NCBI GenBank assembly: GCA_002813895.1
Contig: CP024912.1
Coordinates: 2,635,836 to 2,699,835 of the forward strand
Direction: 5' to 3'
Length of the DNA: 64,000 nucleotides
Source of the DNA: Cyanobacterium sp. HL-69
GTDB lineage: Bacteria > Cyanobacteriota > Cyanobacteriia > Cyanobacteriales > Cyanobacteriaceae
The position numbers and the translations under genes were made by a program. How positions within the stretch are numbered: the stretch's first letter is position 1; each line of letters starts with the position of its first letter. Below, piece after piece: positions 1,774-51,367 of this stretch. The notes below the pieces were generated by a model. That model saw only the letters and a program-made list of their open reading frames with translations, had not been told where the DNA came from and ran no database searches.

Positions 1774-3567
1774 TTAACGCTTAACTAACTTTTTGGTGTT
1801 AACTTTGCGTAAGCGAATAGATTCGGGAGTTACTTCTAACAACTCATCGGGCCCGATATATTCTAAAGCGCGTTCTAAATTCATTTCCACAGGAGCTTGT
1901 AATTGTACTAATTCATCCCCTGTTGCCGCACGGTGGTTAGTTAACTGCTTAGTTTTACAAACGTTAATCTCCACATCTTGGGCGCGGTTACATTCACCGA
2001 TAATCATGCCTTTGTAAACCTTGGTACCAGGATGAATAAAGAATACTCCTCTATCTTCAGCATTTTTCATGGCGTAGAAAGTAGAAACACCCTCTTCAAA
2101 GGAGATAAGGACACCGTTGTAACGGGTTTCTAAATCTCCCACCAAAGGACGATATTCATGGAAACTATGGTTCATGATACCAGCGCCTTTTGTCATACGA
2201 ATAAAGTCACCACGGAAACCAATTAAACCACGGGCAGGGACGACAAATTCTAACTGAGTACGTCCATTATCCCCTGATTGCATATCCTGCATTTCCGCTT
2301 TACGTTGTCCTAAGCGTTCGATACAAGAGCCTTGGGCTTCTTCGGGTACGTCTAAAACAAGGTATTCAAAAGGTTCGTAGGGTTGTCCATTTACCTCACG
2401 GTAAATTACTTGAGGCTGAGATACTTGAAACTCGAAACCTTCACGACGCATATTCTCGATGAGGATACCGAGGTGTAATTCTCCTCTTCCTGAAACAATA
2501 AATTGATCAGCGGATTCTCCATCTTCTACTCTTAAAGCTACATTAGTTTGTAACTCTTTGTCGAGGCGATCGCGAATTTGACGAGAAGTAACAAATTTAC
2601 CTTCTAATCCAGCGAAAGGAGAGTTATTAACAGAGAAAGTCATTCTCAAAGTAGGCTCATCAACCCGAATCAAAGGTAATGCTTGAGGTTCATTTGGACA
2701 GGTAATAGTTTCACCAATATTGGCATCGGTAAATCCTGCCACAGCAACGATATAACCAGCGCTTGCTTCTTCTAATTCGACCCTTTGTAAACCTTCAAAA
2801 CCCAACAGTTTGCTAATTCTGGCCTTAACCATGGTACCGTCTTCTTTCATTAGAGCAGCCTGTTGTCCTGCTTCAATTTTACCATTATGAATTTTACCAA
2901 TAACGATTCTGCCTAAATAGTCAGAATAATCGAGGGTAGTTACTTGCAATTGTAAAGGTTTTTCAGGATCTCCAGCTGGGGGTGGAACATGGTGTAAGAT
3001 AGCCTCAAACAAAGGCTGCATATCAACATTGTCATCGTCGATTTTATTTTTAGCAAATCCAGTCAAACCAGAAGCATAAAGGGTGGTGAAATCGCATTGA
3101 TCATCATCTGCACCTAATTCTACGAATAAATCAAATACTTTGTCCACAGCCCTGTCAGGGTGGACGTTAGGGCGATCAATTTTATTAACAACTACAATGG
3201 GGCGTAAACCTTTTTCCAGAGCTTTTTTAAGTACAAAACGAGTTTGAGGCATGGGGCCTTCGTTGGCATCGACGATTAATACACAACCGTCAACCATTCC
3301 TAAAACCCGTTCAACTTCACCGCCAAAGTCGGCGTGTCCAGGGGTATCTACAATATTAATTAATGTATCTTTGTAGCGTACAGCAGTATTCTTGGAAAGA
3401 ATTGTAATTCCTCTTTCTTTTTCTATATCATTAGAATCCATGACACAGGTAGGAACTTCTTCTCCTTCTCTGAAGATTCCAGACTGTTGTAATAAAGCAT
3501 CTACGAGGGTGGTTTTGCCGTGGTCAACGTGGGCAATAATCGCAAGATTGCGAATGGGGAGAGACAT
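1774..3567 (-). CDS. typA: Ribosome-associated GTPase TypA/BipA
   Basis: A translational GTPase of the EF-G family that binds the 70S ribosome and helps stress and low-temperature growth and 50S assembly. All G motifs are visible: [10 protein letters not shown] (G1) at about residue 11, ERGITI (G2), DTPGHADF (G3) and NKIDRPN (G4). The length of 597 residues is usual for the family, and the C-terminal TypA-specific domain is complete. It starts with ATG at 3567 and is transcribed divergently from dnaK across 306 bp. A strong hairpin terminator follows the stop. Confidence 0.97.
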
Positions 3568-35222: not shown

Positions 35223-36252
35223 TAGCATTTACTGAAGTTATGAGGTACAGTAAAGTTAAGTATTTTTAAAATTAAAGTTAATCAGAAAATGAAATCTTAT
35301 TCCAAGGATTTTAGAGAAAAGATTATAGAGGTACGTGAGCAAGAAAAAATATCGATTCGAGGATTAGCAGCTCGTTTTTGTGTAGCTAAAAGTTTCATCC
35401 AGAAAATTGTCAAACAGTATCAAGAAACAGGGGACATATCTCCTCGTCCAAGGGGAGGAGGTAAAAAGCCGAAAGTGTCCTCAGAAGATTTAATCATTCT
35501 TGAAGAAATTATTGAGCAAAATAATGATTGTACATTAAGAGAATTATGTGCCTTATTAGAGTTAAAAACAGGAATAACCGTTAGTACGTCTACAATGAAT
35601 AGACTCTGTGGAAAATTAAACTTAACCGTCAAAAAAAACCTTGCACGCTACAGAAAAACACAGCCAGAGAGTTCAATTAAAACGTTGTGAATATTGGAAT
35701 TAAATTAGACACATCAAAGAAGAAGACCTAATATTTATCGATGAATCGGGAGTAAATTTAGCCCTAGTAAGATTATATGCTCGAAGTTTGAAAGGGGAAA
35801 GAGCTAAAGGAGAAAAACCACAAAAAAGAGGGAAAAATGTTTCCATATTAGGTGCTTTATCATTAAAGGGAGTCATAGCTTCGATGAATATATATGGTTC
35901 AGTAGATGGATTAACATTTGAGGCTTTCATCATCACCCAACTAATTCCGAAACTATGGAAAGGAGCTTGTGTTGTCATGGATAATGCTAAAATTCATTTG
36001 GGAAAAATCATTAGACAAGAAATAGAAAAGGTAGGGGCAAAGTTAGTTTATTTATCACCATACTCTCCAGATTTTTCCCCCATTGAAAATTTTTGGTCTA
36101 AGGTCAAAGCAATATTAAAAAAAATATCTCCTCGAACAAATTTTGATTTAGTTCAGGCTATTGATTTAGCAATGGAAAAAGTAACAGAAAAAGATATTCA
36201 CCATTGGTTTACTCATTGCTGTTACTGTACCTCATAACTCAGGGAAACGCTA
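35223..36252 (+). mobile_element. IS630-family element A (inactivated)
   Basis: Inverted repeats of about 34 bp (35220-35253 and 36222-36255) share the inner half TTATGAGGTACAGTAA exactly. Ends read TAGC...GCTA flanked by TA (35221-35222 and 36253-36254), the usual TA target of the IS630/Tc1 superfamily. The transposase inside is broken. Confidence 0.85.
35289..36237 (+). pseudogene. IS630-family transposase, frameshifted and stopped
   Basis: The N-terminal helix-turn-helix part (35289-35690) is in one frame and ends after KNLARYRKT. The DDE part continues in another frame: LIFIDESG, CVVMDNAKIH and SPDFSPIENFW supply Asp, Asp and Glu. The second frame has a TAA at 35701-35703, after the first frame has already stopped at 35690. 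The two frames therefore do not overlap, and a programmed frameshift cannot join them. At least two lesions are needed to explain this. Confidence 0.85.
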
Positions 36253-36343
36253 TATAATTAGTTTGAGATGTTAAAAACGTTAGATGTTCATATTGTGTTT
36301 GTACACGTGGTGGGTAAGGGGCTAGGAGGGCTAGGAGTTGGGC

Positions 36344-36361
36344 AAGGGGCTTAAGCCCCTT
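36344..36361. repeat. 18-bp palindrome AAGGGGCTTAAGCCCCTT
   Basis: A perfect palindrome between the two IS630 elements. It is a close variant of AAGGGGTTTAAACCCCTT, found at the centre of the MITE-like elements at 47351 and 50544. Only the core is shared here. Confidence 0.6.
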
Positions 36362-36385
36362 ATTAAAATTTACAGATAAAACTTA

Positions 36386-37334
36386 TAGTCAATCAAAATA
36401 AGACTGAGACATTTAGCTAGTACAATAATTACAAATTATTTCATATAAAGTTATTGTACTATTGCTATACATTTTTGCTCTTTTTAAAGCACTAAAATCG
36501 TGTTCAATATCATTTAAATCTGGTGAATAAGTTGGTAAAAACATTACTAGATGACCTGCTTCTTCTACTAATTCTTTTATCATATTTTTTCGGTGGATTG
36601 GTGCATTATCCATTATTAGTATTGAAAATTGTTTTAGTGATGGTAATAAATACATTTTTAGCCATGATTCAACACTTTCTGCATTTAAACTTCCTGTAAA
36701 GATCATTGGAGCAATAAAATCTTTTTCTTTCTTTCTTCTTCCTGCTACTAAATTTTCTCTTTTTCCTCGTTTTCCTTGTTTCTCATCATAAATTTTTTTT
36801 CCTTTTTTTGACCACCCATAAATGCAAGTACTTATTTCCTCAAATCCTGACTCATCAATAAATACCATACTCTTACTTCCGTATTTTTTGACTAATTCTC
36901 TTAATTTTTGTAAGTATTCTATTCTTTGTTTTCTATTTCTTTCTCTATAACGTAACTGTTTTTTTTTCTTGTTATGTTCATTTTTTTGAATGCATGAGAT
37001 ATTGCTGACATTGTTACTCCAAATTTTTTCGCTCTATCTATTAATTTATCATCTGGATTTTTCACTACATCTTCATATAGTGCTGATTTATCTAATTTTC
37101 TTTGACGAGTTTTGACCACTGTTGGTCTTAAATCTTTTCTATTCAACCATCTATATATTGATGCTCTTGATATTCCAAATATTCTCGATGCTTTTGTTAC
37201 GTTACCTCTATTTTCTACATAGTCAATTACTTTTTGTCTTAATTCTATATCATGGGGCATTATACTTAAATATAAAAATAATTACTTCATCCATTATTTT
37301 ACCCTTGATTGGTTCATACTTAAGTAAAGTGACT
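36386..37334 (-). mobile_element. IS630-family element B (apparently intact)
   Basis: About 949 bp. The ends read TAGTCA inwards from both sides, each flanked by TA (36384-36385 and 37335-37336), as expected for IS630 insertion at TA. The inverted repeats are imperfect beyond the first nine bases (TTATAGTCA). It differs from element A in sequence and orientation, so the two are separate insertions. Confidence 0.75.
36413..37260 (-). CDS. IS630-family transposase made by -1 frameshift
   Basis: Two frames encode one transposase. The first (37260 to 36919, 113 residues) holds the DNA-binding domains (SRIFGISRASIYRWLNRKD). The second holds the DDE domain (MVFIDESGF, ILIMDNAPIH, SPDLNDIEHDF) and is open from 36958 to 36413. 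The first frame contains A AAA AAC at 36964-36958, in the correct phase for -1 slippage. Slipping there continues as QLRYRERNRKQRIEYLQ without a stop and fits IS630 proteins. Frameshifting is inferred from sequence. Confidence 0.75.
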
Positions 37335-37452
37335 ATAACTTATAAATGAGTGCGTAACGTCAGTCAAATAATAGAGTTATTAAATTTCATTACTTTAAGT
37401 GGAGTTACAATTTTATTGTTGTTTTTTCTACCTTTGCTAGGTTGATGGTTTT

Positions 37453-45582: not shown

Positions 45583-47283
45583 CTAACTATCTACGGCTAC
45601 TTGTTCGGTAGAAGGATCAAGACTTTGTTTTGCCCTGACAATGTTTAACCCTTCTTGTAAGGCCGTCAGGCGATCGCCCATCCAATGGTGTCCAGGAATT
45701 AATCCTGCAATACCAAGTTTTTCGAGACGACGTTTCACCTTCCCTGTAGCCCCCACCACAATAACTTCACGACCTAAATCGATAGCTTCATGGATAGCAT
45801 TTTCAATGGCAAGGGAAGAAGTTACCCCCAACACAGGCACTTCACTTAAATCCACCAAAAATACATCATAATTATCAATGGCACTGTGTTCCCGTGCGAT
45901 CGCCTTTGCCACCCCAAAAATCATTGGGCCACTAAGATGGAAAAGTAACAAACGATTATCCGCCAAATCAAGAATTTGTTTCTCCTCATCACTCAACAGA
46001 ATTTGATCATCATCATCCGTAATAGTTTTAACCGCCGTAGATTGTAACTCCGATAACTTCTCAATGGTCAAGATATTAGCAATAAATACCCCCACAGCCA
46101 CCGCAATCATCAAATCTACAAACACCGTTAACAACACCACCACATAGACAATTCCTGCCGCTTTCCAAGAAATTTTGTGAACCCGTTTGAGAAAACCAGA
46201 ATCAATAACGCTAATACCTACCTTCAACACAATGCCCGCCAACACAGCTAAAGGAATATCAGCGGTTAAGGGCGCTGCCCAGATAGCAATAATGAATAAA
46301 ACCCCTGCCCTTACCACACTCGCTAAAGTCGAACGTGCACCTGCCTGAATTGCTACCACACTAGGGGTTGTAGCCCCAGAACCAGCAATACCCCCACAAA
46401 CACCAGTGATGATATTCGCCAGTCCTTGACCAATTAATTCTTTATTCGATTTATGCTCACCACGGGTTAAACTATCACACACCAAACAGGTTAATAAACA
46501 GTCAATACAACCCACCGTTGCCAAGACAATGGCATTGACAAACATAAGTCGTAAATTTTCCATATTCCAAGTAGGCATTTGTAACTTGGGTAAACCAGGG
46601 GTAATTTCACCGATGGTACTGATGGTGCGAATATCATAGTCTCTCAAAAGGAAAACAGTGATTAATGTACCAATCAACAAAGCCGTTAACTGAGGAGGTA
46701 CAATAGCTTTCCATTTGCGAGGATAGAAAAATAAAATGGCGAGGGTAATTAAACCCAGTGCCAACTCTTGAGGATTAATATTTGTGATTAATTCAGGAAG
46801 ATTCCTAATAACTCCAATCACCCCTCCTGCCGGGGTTTCTTGACCCAAGAATGGGGCAATTTGTAAGAAAATGAGAATGACCCCGATACCTGTCATGAAA
46901 CCTGAGATGACGTTGTAGGGAAGCATGGTGATATATTTTCCCAGTTTCAAGACTCCAAAAAGAATCTGGAAAACTCCTGCCATCATAATGACAGTGAAGC
47001 CCATGGCTAAACCTGTTTCTGGATTGCGCGCGATCAATTCAGCCATCACCGCTGTGACGATAACTGTCATTGGACCAGTAGGTTCAGAAATTAGGCTTGG
47101 TGTACCCCCAAACAAGGAAGCAAAAAACCCCACAAGGATAGCTCCCCAAATTCCAGCTGAAGCCCCAGCACCAGAAGCAATCCCGAAGGCTAATGCCATG
47201 GGTAATGCCACCACTGCTGCGGTTAAACCTCCAAAAATATCCCCTTTGAGGTTATCAAATTTGATTGGATTGATTACTTGCAT
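45583..47283 (-). CDS. bicA: SulP-family bicarbonate transporter, BicA-like
   Basis: A 566-residue SLC26/SulP transporter with about 12-14 helices and a C-terminal STAS domain (about 430-550, LLFHLSGPMIFGVAKA and VFLVDLSEVPVLGV). The N-terminal stretch GDIFGGLTAAVVALPMALAFG and SEPTGPMTV are very close to BicA, the Na+-dependent HCO3- transporter of the carbon-concentrating mechanism. A sulfate permease role cannot be excluded by sequence alone. Convergent with secF; the 656-bp region upstream is unusually long. Confidence 0.8.
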   Translation of the reverse strand: MQVINPIKFDNLKGDIFGGLTAAVVALPMALAFGIASGAGASAGIWGAILVGFFASLFGGTPSLISEPTGPMTVIVTAVMAELIARNPETGLAMGFTVIMMAGVFQILFGVLKLGKYITMLPYNVISGFMTGIGVILIFLQIAPFLGQETPAGGVIGVIRNLPELITNINPQELALGLITLAILFFYPRKWKAIVPPQLTALLIGTLITVFLLRDYDIRTISTIGEITPGLPKLQMPTWNMENLRLMFVNAIVLATVGCIDCLLTCLVCDSLTRGEHKSNKELIGQGLANIITGVCGGIAGSGATTPSVVAIQAGARSTLASVVRAGVLFIIAIWAAPLTADIPLAVLAGIVLKVGISVIDSGFLKRVHKISWKAAGIVYVVVLLTVFVDLMIAVAVGVFIANILTIEKLSELQSTAVKTITDDDDQILLSDEEKQILDLADNRLLLFHLSGPMIFGVAKAIAREHSAIDNYDVFLVDLSEVPVLGVTSSLAIENAIHEAIDLGREVIVVGATGKVKRRLEKLGIAGLIPGHHWMGDRLTALQEGLNIVRAKQSLDPSTEQVAVDS

Positions 47284-47939
47284 AGTAGTTATTTTTTTTG
47301 GCGAAAATGATTATTTAGTTTGTTGTGTTTTTTGTTTTCATAGGATTCTTAAGTAGGTTGGCAAAATTAATTTTAAACTCTTATGAACAAGGGGTTTAAA
47401 CCCCTTGCCTAAATCGATTTAATTATGCCTACTTACTTATGATTATTTGTGAGAAAATTATCACCAATAATTTAGAGGTAATAAATTTTTACCTTTTGCT
47501 AAGTAATTGATTTTTAAATAGTTCACAAATTGATTGAGAATTCTATAGAACTTTTTAAGTTGAATAAGTATAAAAAAGTTTTTTAAGCAAGAACTAATAT
47601 ATTTTATTAATGGCAAAAAACAAGAGAATAACGGTTATAAACACTATCATAAATAGCGAACTATTGTTTTAGTCATTAACTAATTATGTAATTGTTACGG
47701 TATCAAATCTTTTGTAATAAAAGAATTAACAATAACTCTCTTAAAATATTAGAGATGATATAAGTTAAATTTTTGTTAAGAAAATATTTCTTTTTATCGC
47801 TATAGTGCGATAGTTTGGATTGTGCGATGATGCCAAACCCGTGACTATTTAACCTAATTTACAGTAAGAATTGATCAAATTATACCGAATCACGAGGGAA
47901 TATGGTTCATGGTGCGAGTTTTAATCTATTTTGTGTAAC
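47284..47939. other. Upstream region of bicA (656 bp)
   Basis: AT-rich spacer between the bicA start and the glycerate kinase stop. It contains the MITE-like repeat at 47351-47434. The rest (47435-47939) is AT-rich with small dyads such as ATCGCTATAGTGCGAT near 47800. No gene or RNA can be supported; bicA promoter and operator sites probably lie next to 47284. Confidence 0.4.
47351..47434 (+). repeat. MITE-like element, copy 1
   Basis: An 84-bp element with short inverted ends (AAGTAGG and CCTACTT) and the perfect palindrome AAGGGGTTTAAACCCCTT at 47389-47406. A close copy lies in inverted orientation at 50544-50643, sharing TTATGAACAAGGGG and CTAAATCGATTTAATTATGC. No coding capacity. It could be a non-autonomous transposon or a structured RNA. 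Confidence 0.7.
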
Positions 47940-48842
47940 CTAGTTATTATTTATCATATAATCTGCACAAAAATGATTTTGATCAATTTTTATTACCAGT
48001 GATTTGCTTACAGATAAGGTATTGATGAATAATTCTGGGTGCAGGGCTTTCCAAAAATACTCGACAAATTCTTTGATTTCTTGATTACTCATTCCTGTTT
48101 TTCCTTGGGCTTTCATTTTTTGTTCGGCTTCTTGGCGCCAAGGCAAACTGTAGTGATAATCAATGGGGTTTAGGATTATTTGATAGTCTATTAATTCCCA
48201 AAGAGGTAAATATTCTTTTAGTCTTTGGTTACAGTCTTTGGCAAATTGTTTGTCGGCTTCGGTGATGATAGGATGGGGAGGGTTATTAAATTTGTCTTCT
48301 GGAATGGGCTTTACTCCTACAAACCATCCTTCAAACAAAATTATATCCACTTTATTGGTTGTTTTATCAGATTTTAAATCACGAAGTGGTATCTGATCGC
48401 CCTTACCCCCATGTAAGGATTTATCAAAACGAGGAATAACCACGGGGCGACATTGCAATAGAGATTGTAGGACTCTTAAAGCTAAGGATACATCATGGGT
48501 GAGGGGAGGGCCACGCCAAATTAAACGGGGGTCAGATTTTGCTAACTCTTTTCTTTCTTCATAGGTTTTATAAAAGTCATCCAAAGAAATAGTTTCACTG
48601 TTAATATTTAACTGGGTTAATAAATACTTTAAAATTTTAGTTAGAGTCGTTTTTCCTGTACTTTGTCCTCCTAAAATTCCCACTAATAATGGTTGAGATT
48701 TTTCTTTAAATTGATTTGCCAAGTGGATAGTAAGAGGCATCCATAAATTATTATATAACTTGCTTACTTCTTGGTCATTTTTAAAGTCTAAATCATCACA
48801 TATTAGTTTAATGTTTTCTTTTATAATCAGATCATTATTCAT
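47940..48842 (-). CDS. D-glycerate 3-kinase
   Basis: Phosphorylates glycerate to 3-phosphoglycerate, the last step of photorespiration. The 300-residue protein is of the plant/cyanobacterial GLYK type (P-loop kinase related to uridine and phosphoribulokinases). The P-loop is GILGGQSTGKTTL at about 57-69; SLDDFYKTYEER, RGPPLTHDVS, PRFDKSLHGG and ILFEGWFVG follow. It begins 6 bp after the comF-like gene and is the last in a three-gene minus-strand operon. Confidence 0.88.
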   Translation of the reverse strand: MNNDLIIKENIKLICDDLDFKNDQEVSKLYNNLWMPLTIHLANQFKEKSQPLLVGILGGQSTGKTTLTKILKYLLTQLNINSETISLDDFYKTYEERKELAKSDPRLIWRGPPLTHDVSLALRVLQSLLQCRPVVIPRFDKSLHGGKGDQIPLRDLKSDKTTNKVDIILFEGWFVGVKPIPEDKFNNPPHPIITEADKQFAKDCNQRLKEYLPLWELIDYQIILNPIDYHYSLPWRQEAEQKMKAQGKTGMSNQEIKEFVEYFWKALHPELFINTLSVSKSLVIKIDQNHFCADYMINNN

Positions 48843-48848
48843 GATTAG

Positions 48849-49514
48849 TTATTCATTATTTTTAAAACTAGATGCGATCGCAATTACCCCTAAAACATCA
48901 ATTTTTAGAGCCTTTAAAACTTTAACTGCTTCCTGTACCGTTGCTCCTGTAGTATAAATATCGTCTAAAACTATAACAGAGTGTTGACGATTAAACCGAG
49001 AATAATCTTTCCCAATGGTAAAGGCTTGAGTAATATTATTTTGTCTTTCCAGAGGATTTAAGCCAAACATAGCATCAGTATTTTTTATCCTTGCTAATAA
49101 ATGGGGAAGATAATTATAACTTGTTATTTCACAGAAAGATTTAGCCACTAATTCTGCCTGATTAAAGCCTCTTTCTTTTAACTTTTTTTGATGCAGAGGT
49201 ATAGGTGCGATCGTGATTTTTTGACCTTTTTTTAACAAATTTTGAGTAATCCATTCCTTCGCCAGTAACTGCCCAAAAACTTCTCCCAATTTTGTTTGAT
49301 TTTCATATTTAAAAGTAAAAATAGCTCTTTTTATATAGTTTTCATATCTAGCCCAAATAAACAAAAGATATTTTTTATTCTTCTGAATTACTGGATTAGC
49401 TACTCTACAAGTAATTAACTGATTATGGCAATATTCACAAATGATACTATTACTTTTTCGCTCACACAATGCACAACTAGATTTAAATAAAAACGAAGAA
49501 AGAATATCTATCAT
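48849..49514 (-). CDS. ComF-family phosphoribosyltransferase-like protein
   Basis: A protein of the ComF/GntX family, linked to DNA uptake in competent bacteria. The N terminus has a zinc-ribbon-like pattern (SCALCERKSNSIICEYC); the C terminus is a type I PRTase fold with the PRPP loop VIVLDDIYTTGATV. I start at the ATG at 49514 (221 residues, MIDILSSFLF); a GTG at 49568 would add 18 unusual residues. The second gene of a three-gene operon; ends 6 bp before the glycerate kinase start. Confidence 0.82.
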   Translation of the reverse strand: MIDILSSFLFKSSCALCERKSNSIICEYCHNQLITCRVANPVIQKNKKYLLFIWARYENYIKRAIFTFKYENQTKLGEVFGQLLAKEWITQNLLKKGQKITIAPIPLHQKKLKERGFNQAELVAKSFCEITSYNYLPHLLARIKNTDAMFGLNPLERQNNITQAFTIGKDYSRFNRQHSVIVLDDIYTTGATVQEAVKVLKALKIDVLGVIAIASSFKNNE

Positions 49515-49582
49515 AATAATTAATACAAAATATTTAACATTCGTTATTTTTTTATAATACGTTACCACAAAAATAATAAAAC

Positions 49583-50503
49583 TTATTTAATATCTTTCAA
49601 ACTATAAGAAATTGTTGTTTCTACTTTTGTCTCCAAATCATCTAAACTATTACCTAAACTTTTTTGAATATTCTTAGTTAAATTAATACTAAAATCTATA
49701 CTATTACCTTTCTCATTAATTAGCCGTATTAAATTTTGTATAGTAGTTTTGATTGTATTCGTTTTTCTTTCAGACAACTTAAAATAATTATTTTCCTCAA
49801 GATTATTATCAAGCATTTTTTCTTTAATATTATCCTTTAAAAATTTGATTTCAGAATCTAAAAATAACCATTGTTCTTCGATTTCCCTATATCTTTTACA
49901 AAGATCTTCCAAACTAATATTATCTTGATTTTCTTTCATAATTTTATCTAACTTTAATAAATGTTGATAAACTTGAGCTAAATAGACACAATCCATTTGA
50001 GCATAATATAACTGATTTTTCTTTAAAGGACGAACTCCCCAATCTCCGCTCTGCTCATTTTTGTCAATGTCTTTGAAATCGGTAAAATACTCAGTTAGTG
50101 TTTTTAAAGACTTACTTTTAACAGGTAAAATATGATAAGGAATTGTTTTAGCGAGCTCATAAGTACAAAAAACATTTTTAGTTTGTTTTCCTCCCAAAAA
50201 TCTTAGATCATATTTAGCATTATGAAAAACCTTTGTGATGCTTTCATTCATCATAATATGGTCAACAAAATAACCTACCAATTCTTCCTGATTTAAAACA
50301 TCAAATAAATAAGTACGACTACCATCAATATTATCAGGATAAGCCAACACTTGAATAAGGGAAATTCGAGGAGTTTTGGTTTTATAGTCAGCGGTTTCTG
50401 TATCAACCCATAATATATCTATATCTCTCAAATCAAGAATTATACTTTTAATCTCATCTTTGTTTGTTAAATACATAAACTTAATATTAATTTTTTTAGA
50501 CAA
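49583..50503 (-). CDS. RNase D-like 3'-5' exonuclease
   Basis: DEDD-type exonuclease domain in residues about 8-190: IDILWVDTETADYK (Exo I, Asp and Glu), VFHNAKYDLRFL (Exo II) and YYAQMDCVYLAQVY (Exo III, Tyr-x3-Asp). The rest (190-306) is charged and coiled, and unlike the HRDC domains of true RNase D. It may act on RNA or DNA. The second Met, M10 at 50476, is an equally plausible start (MYLTNKDEIK). First gene of the operon with comF and glycerate kinase. Confidence 0.82.
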   Translation of the reverse strand: MSKKINIKFMYLTNKDEIKSIILDLRDIDILWVDTETADYKTKTPRISLIQVLAYPDNIDGSRTYLFDVLNQEELVGYFVDHIMMNESITKVFHNAKYDLRFLGGKQTKNVFCTYELAKTIPYHILPVKSKSLKTLTEYFTDFKDIDKNEQSGDWGVRPLKKNQLYYAQMDCVYLAQVYQHLLKLDKIMKENQDNISLEDLCKRYREIEEQWLFLDSEIKFLKDNIKEKMLDNNLEENNYFKLSERKTNTIKTTIQNLIRLINEKGNSIDFSINLTKNIQKSLGNSLDDLETKVETTISYSLKDIK

Positions 50504-50543
50504 GGCTTTTTTAACCTTTTTTCTATAAAACTACCACTTAAGT

Positions 50544-50643
50544 AAGTGGGCATAATTAAATCGATTTAGGTAAGGGGTTTAAACCCCTTGTTCATAAGAG
50601 TCTTAATAAAATAAGAGCTATAATTAATTTCGCCAACCTATTT
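50544..50643 (-). repeat. MITE-like element, copy 2 (inverted)
   Basis: Inverted copy of the element at 47351-47434, with the same AAGGGGTTTAAACCCCTT palindrome at 50572-50589. It has about 16 more bases (CTTATTTTATTAAGA region in the opposite strand). It stands upstream of the exonuclease operon. Together the two copies flank the three-gene operon. Confidence 0.7.
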
Positions 50644-50749
50644 ATCAGTAAAAAGAGTAAGTAATAAACAATTCGTTATCCATAACTTATTTGAATTAAT
50701 TTACATTACCTAACACCTTATCCCCTAAAGCAATTCCCTGTAGATGTTG

Positions 50750-51367
50750 TTACTTATAATTAACTTGTTTTAAAACAAAATCACGTATCACATTAATCTC
50801 TAAGGGTATAATTTCATGAGCCATTTGATACTCCTTATATTGTATATTTATACCCACATTTTCTAACTTTGTTTTGGCATCTCTCGCCGCTTGAATTGGT
50901 ACAATAAGATCATTTGTACCATGGCAAATCAGAGTAGGAGGAAAAGGATTTCTCTCGGTGCTAGGCTCAAAATGCAGATAGCCACTGAGACTGCATACCC
51001 CCGCTACAGGTAACTGTAAGCCCACATCTAAACTCATGGCACCACCTTGAGAAAAACCGCCCACAATGGTTTTACTGAGGGGAATATTAGTCTTATCTTC
51101 GAGGGTTAGTAACCAACGATAAAAAGTATCGACACTTTCTCTGATGCCCTGATTATTATTTTCTAGGGCATACCATGCTTTACCTTCTGGCACATGGGGA
51201 TGAGCATAGGGGGCATTGGGGAAGATATATTGACAGTGGGGTAAGTCTAAGAGTGGCGGAAGGGAAGATAAATCATGATAGTTTGCCCCCCAGCCATGGA
51301 GTAACACAAAAACATACTTGATTTCTTGCCCAGATGGAGGATTATGGATAATGGTATCTAAATTCAT
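50750..51367 (-). CDS. Carboxylesterase/phospholipase-type alpha/beta hydrolase
   Basis: A 205-residue serine hydrolase of the YpfH/acyl-protein thioesterase group. The nucleophile elbow is GFSQGGAMS (about residue 101-109); the oxyanion region is VFVLLHGWGANYHDL; the acidic residue is likely in CHGTNDLIVP and the His in MAHEIIPLE. It hydrolyses short-chain esters or lysophospholipids; the true substrate is unknown. Divergent from the next gene by 26 bp. Confidence 0.88.
   Translation of the reverse strand: MNLDTIIHNPPSGQEIKYVFVLLHGWGANYHDLSSLPPLLDLPHCQYIFPNAPYAHPHVPEGKAWYALENNNQGIRESVDTFYRWLLTLEDKTNIPLSKTIVGGFSQGGAMSLDVGLQLPVAGVCSLSGYLHFEPSTERNPFPPTLICHGTNDLIVPIQAARDAKTKLENVGINIQYKEYQMAHEIIPLEINVIRDFVLKQVNYK

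Follow-up and report, generated by a model that had tools for sequence, protein, structure and literature searches.

This locus raises the question of what two inverted repeats of about 90 bp, lying on either side of a three-gene operon in Cyanobacterium sp. HL-69, represent. The window, i.e. the whole stretch of 64,000 nucleotides that was analysed, covers C1:2635836-2699835 of the 3.30-Mb HL-69 genome. The original prediction had described the repeats as oppositely oriented copies of an element resembling miniature inverted-repeat transposable elements (MITEs), had assigned them to a dispersed family, and had proposed that they could drive inversion of the 3.1-kb segment. We consider it very probable that the repeats are copies of a non-autonomous MITE inserting at TA, that the hairpin module in this element has been dispersed independently of it, and that the two window copies do not mark an invertible segment.

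Both window copies were recovered in opposite orientation, and their limits were corrected to those given in Table 1. They have an exact AAGGGGTTTAAACCCCTT in common and lie 66 bp (first copy) and 35 bp (second copy) upstream of the first listed starts of a SulP-type gene and the exonuclease gene, respectively. The 18-mer core was seen three times in the window at up to three mismatches, as opposed to 0.11 times expected by chance, and genome-wide at up to one mismatch at 72 sites, as opposed to none for the reversed control. A genome-wide search, as had been suggested, with the 90-bp copy as query gave 66 matches, a number that includes free hairpins and the palindrome counted again on the reverse strand; 35 copies were analysed, the limits of 12 of which were set by hand after BLAST. 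The complete element comprises 102 bp, or 106 bp with the flanking TA on each side, and is non-coding; the earlier statement on the lack of an encoded transposase is correct as far as the element itself is concerned. Its ends are imperfectly inverted, AGTAGGTTGGCGAAATTAAT and AGTAAGTAGGCATAATTAAA, with 18 of the first 28 positions identical, and the end pattern can also be written as TAAGTA..GCAAAATTAAT. Thirty copies have a length of 106 bp, two of 107 bp, one of 108 bp, one of 93 bp and one, in the window, of 90 bp, and TA is present at both ends in 28 of the 35. Among the 33 long copies, 29 have 0-5 differences from the consensus, two have nine, and L067 and L068 have 22 and 24 because one side is cut; three match the consensus throughout, disregarding a single inserted base in one copy. 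All 35 copies lie outside open reading frames (ORFs) of at least 80 codons as called by a crude caller, with 22 between co-directional, 10 between divergent and three between convergent neighbours. Additional decayed or half copies are present outside the 35 counted, and a 127-bp variant of the element with a CTTAAG hairpin and extra bases around it was observed at L055 1146-1272 (about 27.6 kb of C1).

The mobility of the element is best documented in G004, a genome of the same genus, which contains one copy that is 96% identical to the consensus. The flanks of this copy match the HL-69 genome at 95% and 93% and meet there at C1:777684-777686. The empty HL-69 site reads GTATTGGTA-TA-AATTTT, to which the filled G004 site adds 102 bases and a second TA, which amounts to an exact insertion; as read from the sequence, it splits a stop codon, which the first base of the element restores. 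Five HL-69 sites were additionally compared with the relatives G001-G004. At four of these (L014, L029, L012, L066), a comparison of both sides was possible in G003 and/or G004 and showed no element, and L028 was matched on one side only. The junctions at the four sites are less exact than the first: the intergenic parts have diverged, and G004 contains about 45 other bases at L014. Both window sites are without the element in G004, the first also in G003, and within the genus about 35 full copies in HL-69 stand against one in G004 and none in G003. Thus a short, non-coding form, inverted ends, TA duplication, an empty site and many dispersed copies were all found. Copy number, TA ends and the empty site bear out the description as MITE-like, and the dispersed family is confirmed with at least 35 copies in this genome; the element is neither confined to this locus nor immobile. 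As a side observation, the flanks of the G004 copy (L035, C5) and C1:776984-778386 of HL-69 are 93-95% identical, as opposed to only 73% for the kinase-like protein of G004, and the region around the copy may have been exchanged between the two genomes.

The MITE is most likely cut and pasted in trans, now or formerly, by a transposase of the Tc1/mariner/IS630 type, inserting at TA and duplicating it, and the two window insertions would be ordinary insertions upstream of two genes rather than marks of an invertible segment. We infer the type of mechanism because TA is both the insertion site and the duplicated sequence of ISY100, an element of the IS630/Tc1-mariner type (PMC2170065). Two transposase families (IS630/DDE_3 and DDE_Tnp_1) were considered, and the loci were read for 49 of their 68 matches. 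In both families, the multi-copy insertion sequences (IS) have TATAGTCA, TAGGGCGTGTCATC, TATAGAACCCATTTGG or other ends that do not resemble those of the MITE. The end patterns of the MITE are mostly paired, about 106 bp apart, and among the ORFs around unpaired ends, as inspected by eye, the sole transposase belongs to an IS630 copy that ends in TATAGTCA and lies about 350 bp away from the L069 copy.

However, several points weigh against this account. No IS with MITE ends was found in a limited search of this genome, which covered end patterns at up to three mismatches, the ORFs around unpaired ends and the two transposase families, with ends compared for multi-copy IS but not for single-copy ones such as L091. 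A 2-bp TA duplication also occurs in some IS5-family groups, and the IS630/Tc1 type is therefore not proven. Furthermore, base-exact evidence of an empty site comes from a single case.

Beyond HL-69, BLAST at 1e-6 gave matches in 8 of 60 genomes, HL-69 included, and the one match in G003 consists of 37 bases around the hairpin only. A covariance model was built from 34 aligned copies; its E-values are rough, and its matches per genome are lower bounds. At E<=1e-4 it detected the element in 18 of 388 genomes of the order, HL-69 included, in seven families; six of the 18 had supplied sequences, and 12 had not been used in model building. As judged by eye, the far matches in G037, G254, G305, G353 and G220 keep the ends TAAGT..GCAAAATTAATT with other inner parts, and G161 and G278 keep the hairpin-bearing inner part with different ends. 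In G040, the HIP1 octamer GCGATCGC forms part of the core hairpin, AAGGGCGATCGCCCTT, of three related elements (L173, L174, L175). On named plasmids, the model matched Geminocystis sp. NIES-3708 pGM01 and Calothrix sp. PCC 6303, and weakly (E 0.003) a plasmid of Gloeothece citriformis PCC 7424; the middle of the three matching plasmid elements has other hairpins or short repeats. On the Geminocystis sp. NIES-3708 plasmid (L232 2501-2623), another palindrome replaces the hairpin middle between the same AACAA/GCC borders. Five plasmid matches to the end sequence were opened, two of which do not fit the MITE model, and no transposase was present in the annotated 5 kb around any of them. A search of plasmids and phages returned no match to the element itself, and viral contigs contained neither a 32-base exact part of the MITE nor the 24-mer pattern.

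The core of the MITE is a hairpin of 24 nt with the consensus AACAAGGGG(T/C)TTAA(A/G)CCCCTTGCC, unpaired AA and CC ends and a stem of -12.7 to -14.9 kcal/mol, and compensatory variants of it occur in one genome (GGGG/CCCC, TGGG/CCCA, TTTAAA/CTTAAG). Core sites outside the MITE have these 24 bases in common and no more. A pattern search in 23 chosen genomes detected the hairpin in 15, and the reversed control in none. Counted on both strands, with copies inside MITEs included and a few symmetrical ones counted twice, the hairpins number 94 in HL-69 and 67, 20, 8 and 1 in other genomes of the genus (the last being 63% complete), 79 and 6 in the genus g4, and 123, 26, 3, 1 and 1 in the genus g5. 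Outside the MITE, 60 hairpins with up to two mismatches were found in the part of the HL-69 sequence that was analysed, of which 14 share flanks with each other, leaving 46; a sequence resembling a MITE end lies within 110 bp of three more, among them 77217, which is clearly part of a half copy, and without these three 43 remain. The pattern is fitted without mismatch by 34 of the 46. With ORFs called by length only, 28 of the 46 lie between co-directional genes, 16 between convergent and one between divergent genes, and one within an ORF; for the 43, these numbers are 25, 16, one and one. The free hairpins thus differ in context from the MITE copies (Fisher p 9e-5), also when convergent sites are compared with all other contexts (p 0.007 for the 46, p 0.004 for the 43).

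On plasmids of Pseudanabaena sp. ABRG5-3, BLAST placed the hairpin at 18 places in two records, many of them possibly partial, and two 50-kb stretches contained five hairpins at up to four mismatches, one of them exact. One exact 24-mer (3001-3025) is present on a plasmid of Leptolyngbya sp. BL0902, where an annotated transposase gene (L238 1915-2742) ends about 260 bp from it. The T variant matched four plasmid records, none of them cyanobacterial. The C variant matched 22 records; Pseudanabaena and Leptolyngbya are among the best, and matches of lesser length are found in Klebsiella, Escherichia, Bacillus and others. Since one match in Klebsiella covers 20 of 20 bases, the bare 20-base palindrome by itself lacks specificity. 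The hairpin strings did not occur in the cyanobacterial literature searched, which excluded supplements and most subscription papers.

The hairpin also occurs in two other mini-elements with different ends and duplications. The second mini-element has ends ACTGACGTTACGCA, carries the CTTAAG hairpin and is flanked in three copies, by eye, by the 5-bp duplications TTCTA, TAAAA and TATTA. The third, from G010, is about 210 bp long with the hairpin inside and about 5-6 duplicated bases (TACCTA), and the corresponding G007 site is empty; this is one case. In the HL-69 genome, an IS-like end (TAACCTGAGTTCGGGTTAAG; L096) resembles the ends of this third mini-element (L139 9630-9840). A remnant of the second mini-element is also found in the window, where the original prediction had placed the same palindrome core at 36344-36361. 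This site differs at 2 of 18 bases and lies in a repeat other than the ~90-bp element, between two IS630 transposase genes, and it was rejected as a third copy of the element, being a hairpin variant inside another mini-element. Within 35244-37338 lies a pair of different IS630-family transposase genes in facing orientation, with NCBIfam IS630 matches just above the cut-off; the right one is divided between two frames and is a member of a group of about 15 genomic copies with ends TATAGTCA.

The MITE carries a module that is dispersed independently of it, in the two other mini-elements as well as free. Because of this independent dispersal and its rarity between divergent genes, the hairpin would be one of two things: a tiny mobile repeat with MITEs among its landing sites, or an RNA hairpin of some use that travels as a passenger of MITEs and persists wherever it is harmless. 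Of 35 HL-69 hairpins compared, eight have both flanks matched in G003 or G004, and the hairpin is absent there in all eight. Four of these belong to MITE copies and one (115611) to the second mini-element; three (2110426, 753445, 1502866) are free. For two of the free ones, the gap in the relative is longer than in HL-69, and the junction sequences have diverged too far to reveal an exact gain of 24 bases. In G010 and G007, with 200 kb each, the flanks were unmatched for five of six and three of three hairpins, respectively. The HL-69 hairpin at 556848 is conserved base by base in G001 and G004 and is spanned by a BLAST match in G003; hence not all free copies are young, although this site is not an unbiased sample since it was found via the matches of the relatives there. 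Beside it (L294 1198-1270), a short TTGAATAAT... unit varies in repeat number among HL-69, G001 and G004. The most far-reaching version, in which the hairpin is a free-standing, very small mobile element across several cyanobacterial orders that inserts by itself, avoids divergent promoters and has repeatedly entered MITEs unrelated to each other, by which it is carried to the promoter side, is rather doubtful in our judgement.

The alternative that survives best regards the hairpin as an immobile, functional 3'-end element, i.e. a transcript end or stabiliser that arose or was kept by selection and is a passenger in the MITE. The position of the free copies, 16 convergent against one divergent (p 3e-4) with three against ten for the MITE copies, is consistent with this, as are the stem energy and the one site conserved in four species. 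However, the complete 24-base pattern, unpaired AA and CC included, is repeated at many sites whose flanks have nothing in common, the flank counts show no run of T after the stem, and the orientation relative to transcription is the same in 11 cases and opposite in 17. In co-directional gaps, 17 of 28 hairpins lie nearer the stop than the next start, which says little. The erratic counts among congeners (79 vs 6 and 123 vs 1) and the absence of the hairpin in G003 or G004 at all three free sites with both flanks matched also argue against it. We regard such a function as a distinct possibility that falls short of being likely.

Distribution of the hairpins as REP sequences by a RAYT (TnpA-REP) enzyme appears quite improbable. 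Their size, extragenic position and hairpin form are REP-like by the definitions in PMC6006769, which also describes atypical REP without GT[AG]G. However, the hairpin has no GT[AG]G at its foot, with AA on one side, CC on the other and T before the AA in 38 of the 46 free hairpins.

Highly improbable, in turn, is a conserved small or regulatory RNA family, in which a Y-shaped structure is selected and the copies are paralogous RNA genes. In favour of this, one strand of the consensus copy folds as a three-way junction made up of the paired ends, the core hairpin and another hairpin on the left (-33.3 kcal/mol, z -5.3), two relatives give z -3.0 and -3.5, the architecture is kept in several genera, and some pairs have changed on both sides. 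However, covariation is modest: among 33 distinct copies, 10 pairs changed on both sides as opposed to 5.7 (standard deviation 1.7) after shuffling, a number reached by 10 of 500 shuffles. Slid versions gave 1-7 such pairs. Pair types are no more numerous than in shuffles (122 of 500), RNAalifold retains from the alignment alone only the eight pairs of the core hairpin, and pairing of the ends is expected for any inverted transposon ends. In view of covariation and RNAalifold, the core hairpin of the predicted fold is well supported and the Y-shaped junction weakly. The TA flanks and empty sites, the uneven copy numbers within the genus, the other inner parts at the same place in relatives, and the lack of any Rfam family at gathering score in the window also speak against an RNA family.

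The gene order around the window copies bears on the inversion. In G004, the order SulP, kinase-like, ComF, exonuclease and esterase is that of HL-69 with the same orientations, without either element, and the operon is therefore not inverted relative to G004; in G003, SulP, kinase-like and ComF have the same order and orientation, with other genes after ComF. A switch in which the inverted copies recombine and flip the 3.1-kb operon, for which the opposite orientation of the copies around three co-directional genes would speak, was accordingly rejected as exceedingly improbable, given the order in G004, a longest identical run of only 30 bases between two copies belonging to a family of at least 35, and no recombinase-like ORF by eye among those listed for 44-54 kb.

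The MITE itself, as a copy of a non-autonomous TA-inserting element, is an ordinary, new member of a known element class. The nested hairpin is the part that deserves attention, as one 24-base sequence with constant unpaired ends occurs in different carriers, at many free sites and in several orders. The spread of repeats too short for normal transposons can be tested directly in strains with many copies against relatives with few.

The features of the window are listed in Table 1. The label of glycerate kinase given to the kinase-like gene of the operon proved unsupported: the protein has no Pfam match at 1e-3, its NCBIfam matches are weak, to uridine/nucleoside kinases only and far below the cut-offs, and its named relatives are four distant cyanobacterial ones. 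Just downstream of this gene, positions 47880-47935 (ACCGAATCACGAGGGAATATGGTTCATGG...) are conserved in G004, as opposed to most of that intergenic region. A terminator scan of 47200-50800 gave two sites, as opposed to 1.7 in shuffles; neither corresponds to the core hairpin, and one, at 50549-50534, consists of the MITE end and adjoining sequence.

Table 1. Positions of the repeats, hairpins and operon genes in the window.
Feature	Position	Strand	Remarks
Second mini-element, remnant	36252-36385	-	cut by IS630 copies; limits by eye; ends ACTGACGTTACGCA in other copies
24-nt hairpin, CTTAAG variant, 1 mismatch	36341-36364	-	inside second mini-element
Second mini-element, other end	37336-37364	-	limits by eye; parted from first part by IS630 copy ~36386-37335
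MITE copy, 90 bp	47350-47439	+	element 47352-47437 plus TA each side; 16 internal bases missing
24-nt hairpin AACAAGGGGTTTAAACCCCTTGCC	47386-47409	+	nested in MITE
Kinase-like P-loop gene	47940-48842	-	
ComF-like gene	48849-49568	-	below curated cut-off
3'-5' exonuclease gene	49583-50503	-	Pfam DNA_pol_A_exo1 above cut-off
MITE copy, full length, 106 bp	50539-50644	-	including both TA
24-nt hairpin, 1 mismatch (...CTTACC)	50569-50592	-	nested in MITE

Among known systems, the MITE resembles ISY100 and the Tc1/mariner/IS630 elements in its insertion at TA with TA duplication and in inverted ends of about 20-24 bp (PMC2170065). It differs from ISY100-type elements in having no transposase gene, and no autonomous partner with the same ends appeared in the limited search. 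The type II MITEs of Anabaena sp. 90, a usage taken from PMC3542288, are likewise about 100 bp long, without a gene, with inverted ends and many intergenic copies; no IS with matching ends was found in that genome, as in the limited search here, and one Anabaena MITE group also has three sets of inverted repeats (PMC3542288). By this usage, the HL-69 element would be a type II MITE. It differs from the type II cyanobacterial MITEs (Anabaena, Nezha), to which it is likened by description rather than by sequence, in its exact TA duplication and in a core that is an independently dispersed hairpin. The hairpin is similar to REP/REPIN sequences as a short extragenic hairpin in tens of copies, but differs in the missing GT[AG]G foot, and no inverted pairs were noticed as a unit. 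The Nostoc SDR repeats of Elhai et al. (2008, cited in PMC3733652 and PMC3116915) reportedly are 21-27 nt long, form hairpins with compensatory variants, and are dispersed and nested in mini-transposons. The hairpin shares these features with its 24 nt, its compensatory variants, its dispersal and its position within mini-transposons, and differs by its occurrence in other cyanobacterial orders, the likeness being one of described features. For SDR5, PMC4390886 reports a position exactly inside another motif. By description, the 24-nt hairpin most resembles the SDR repeats of Nostoc.

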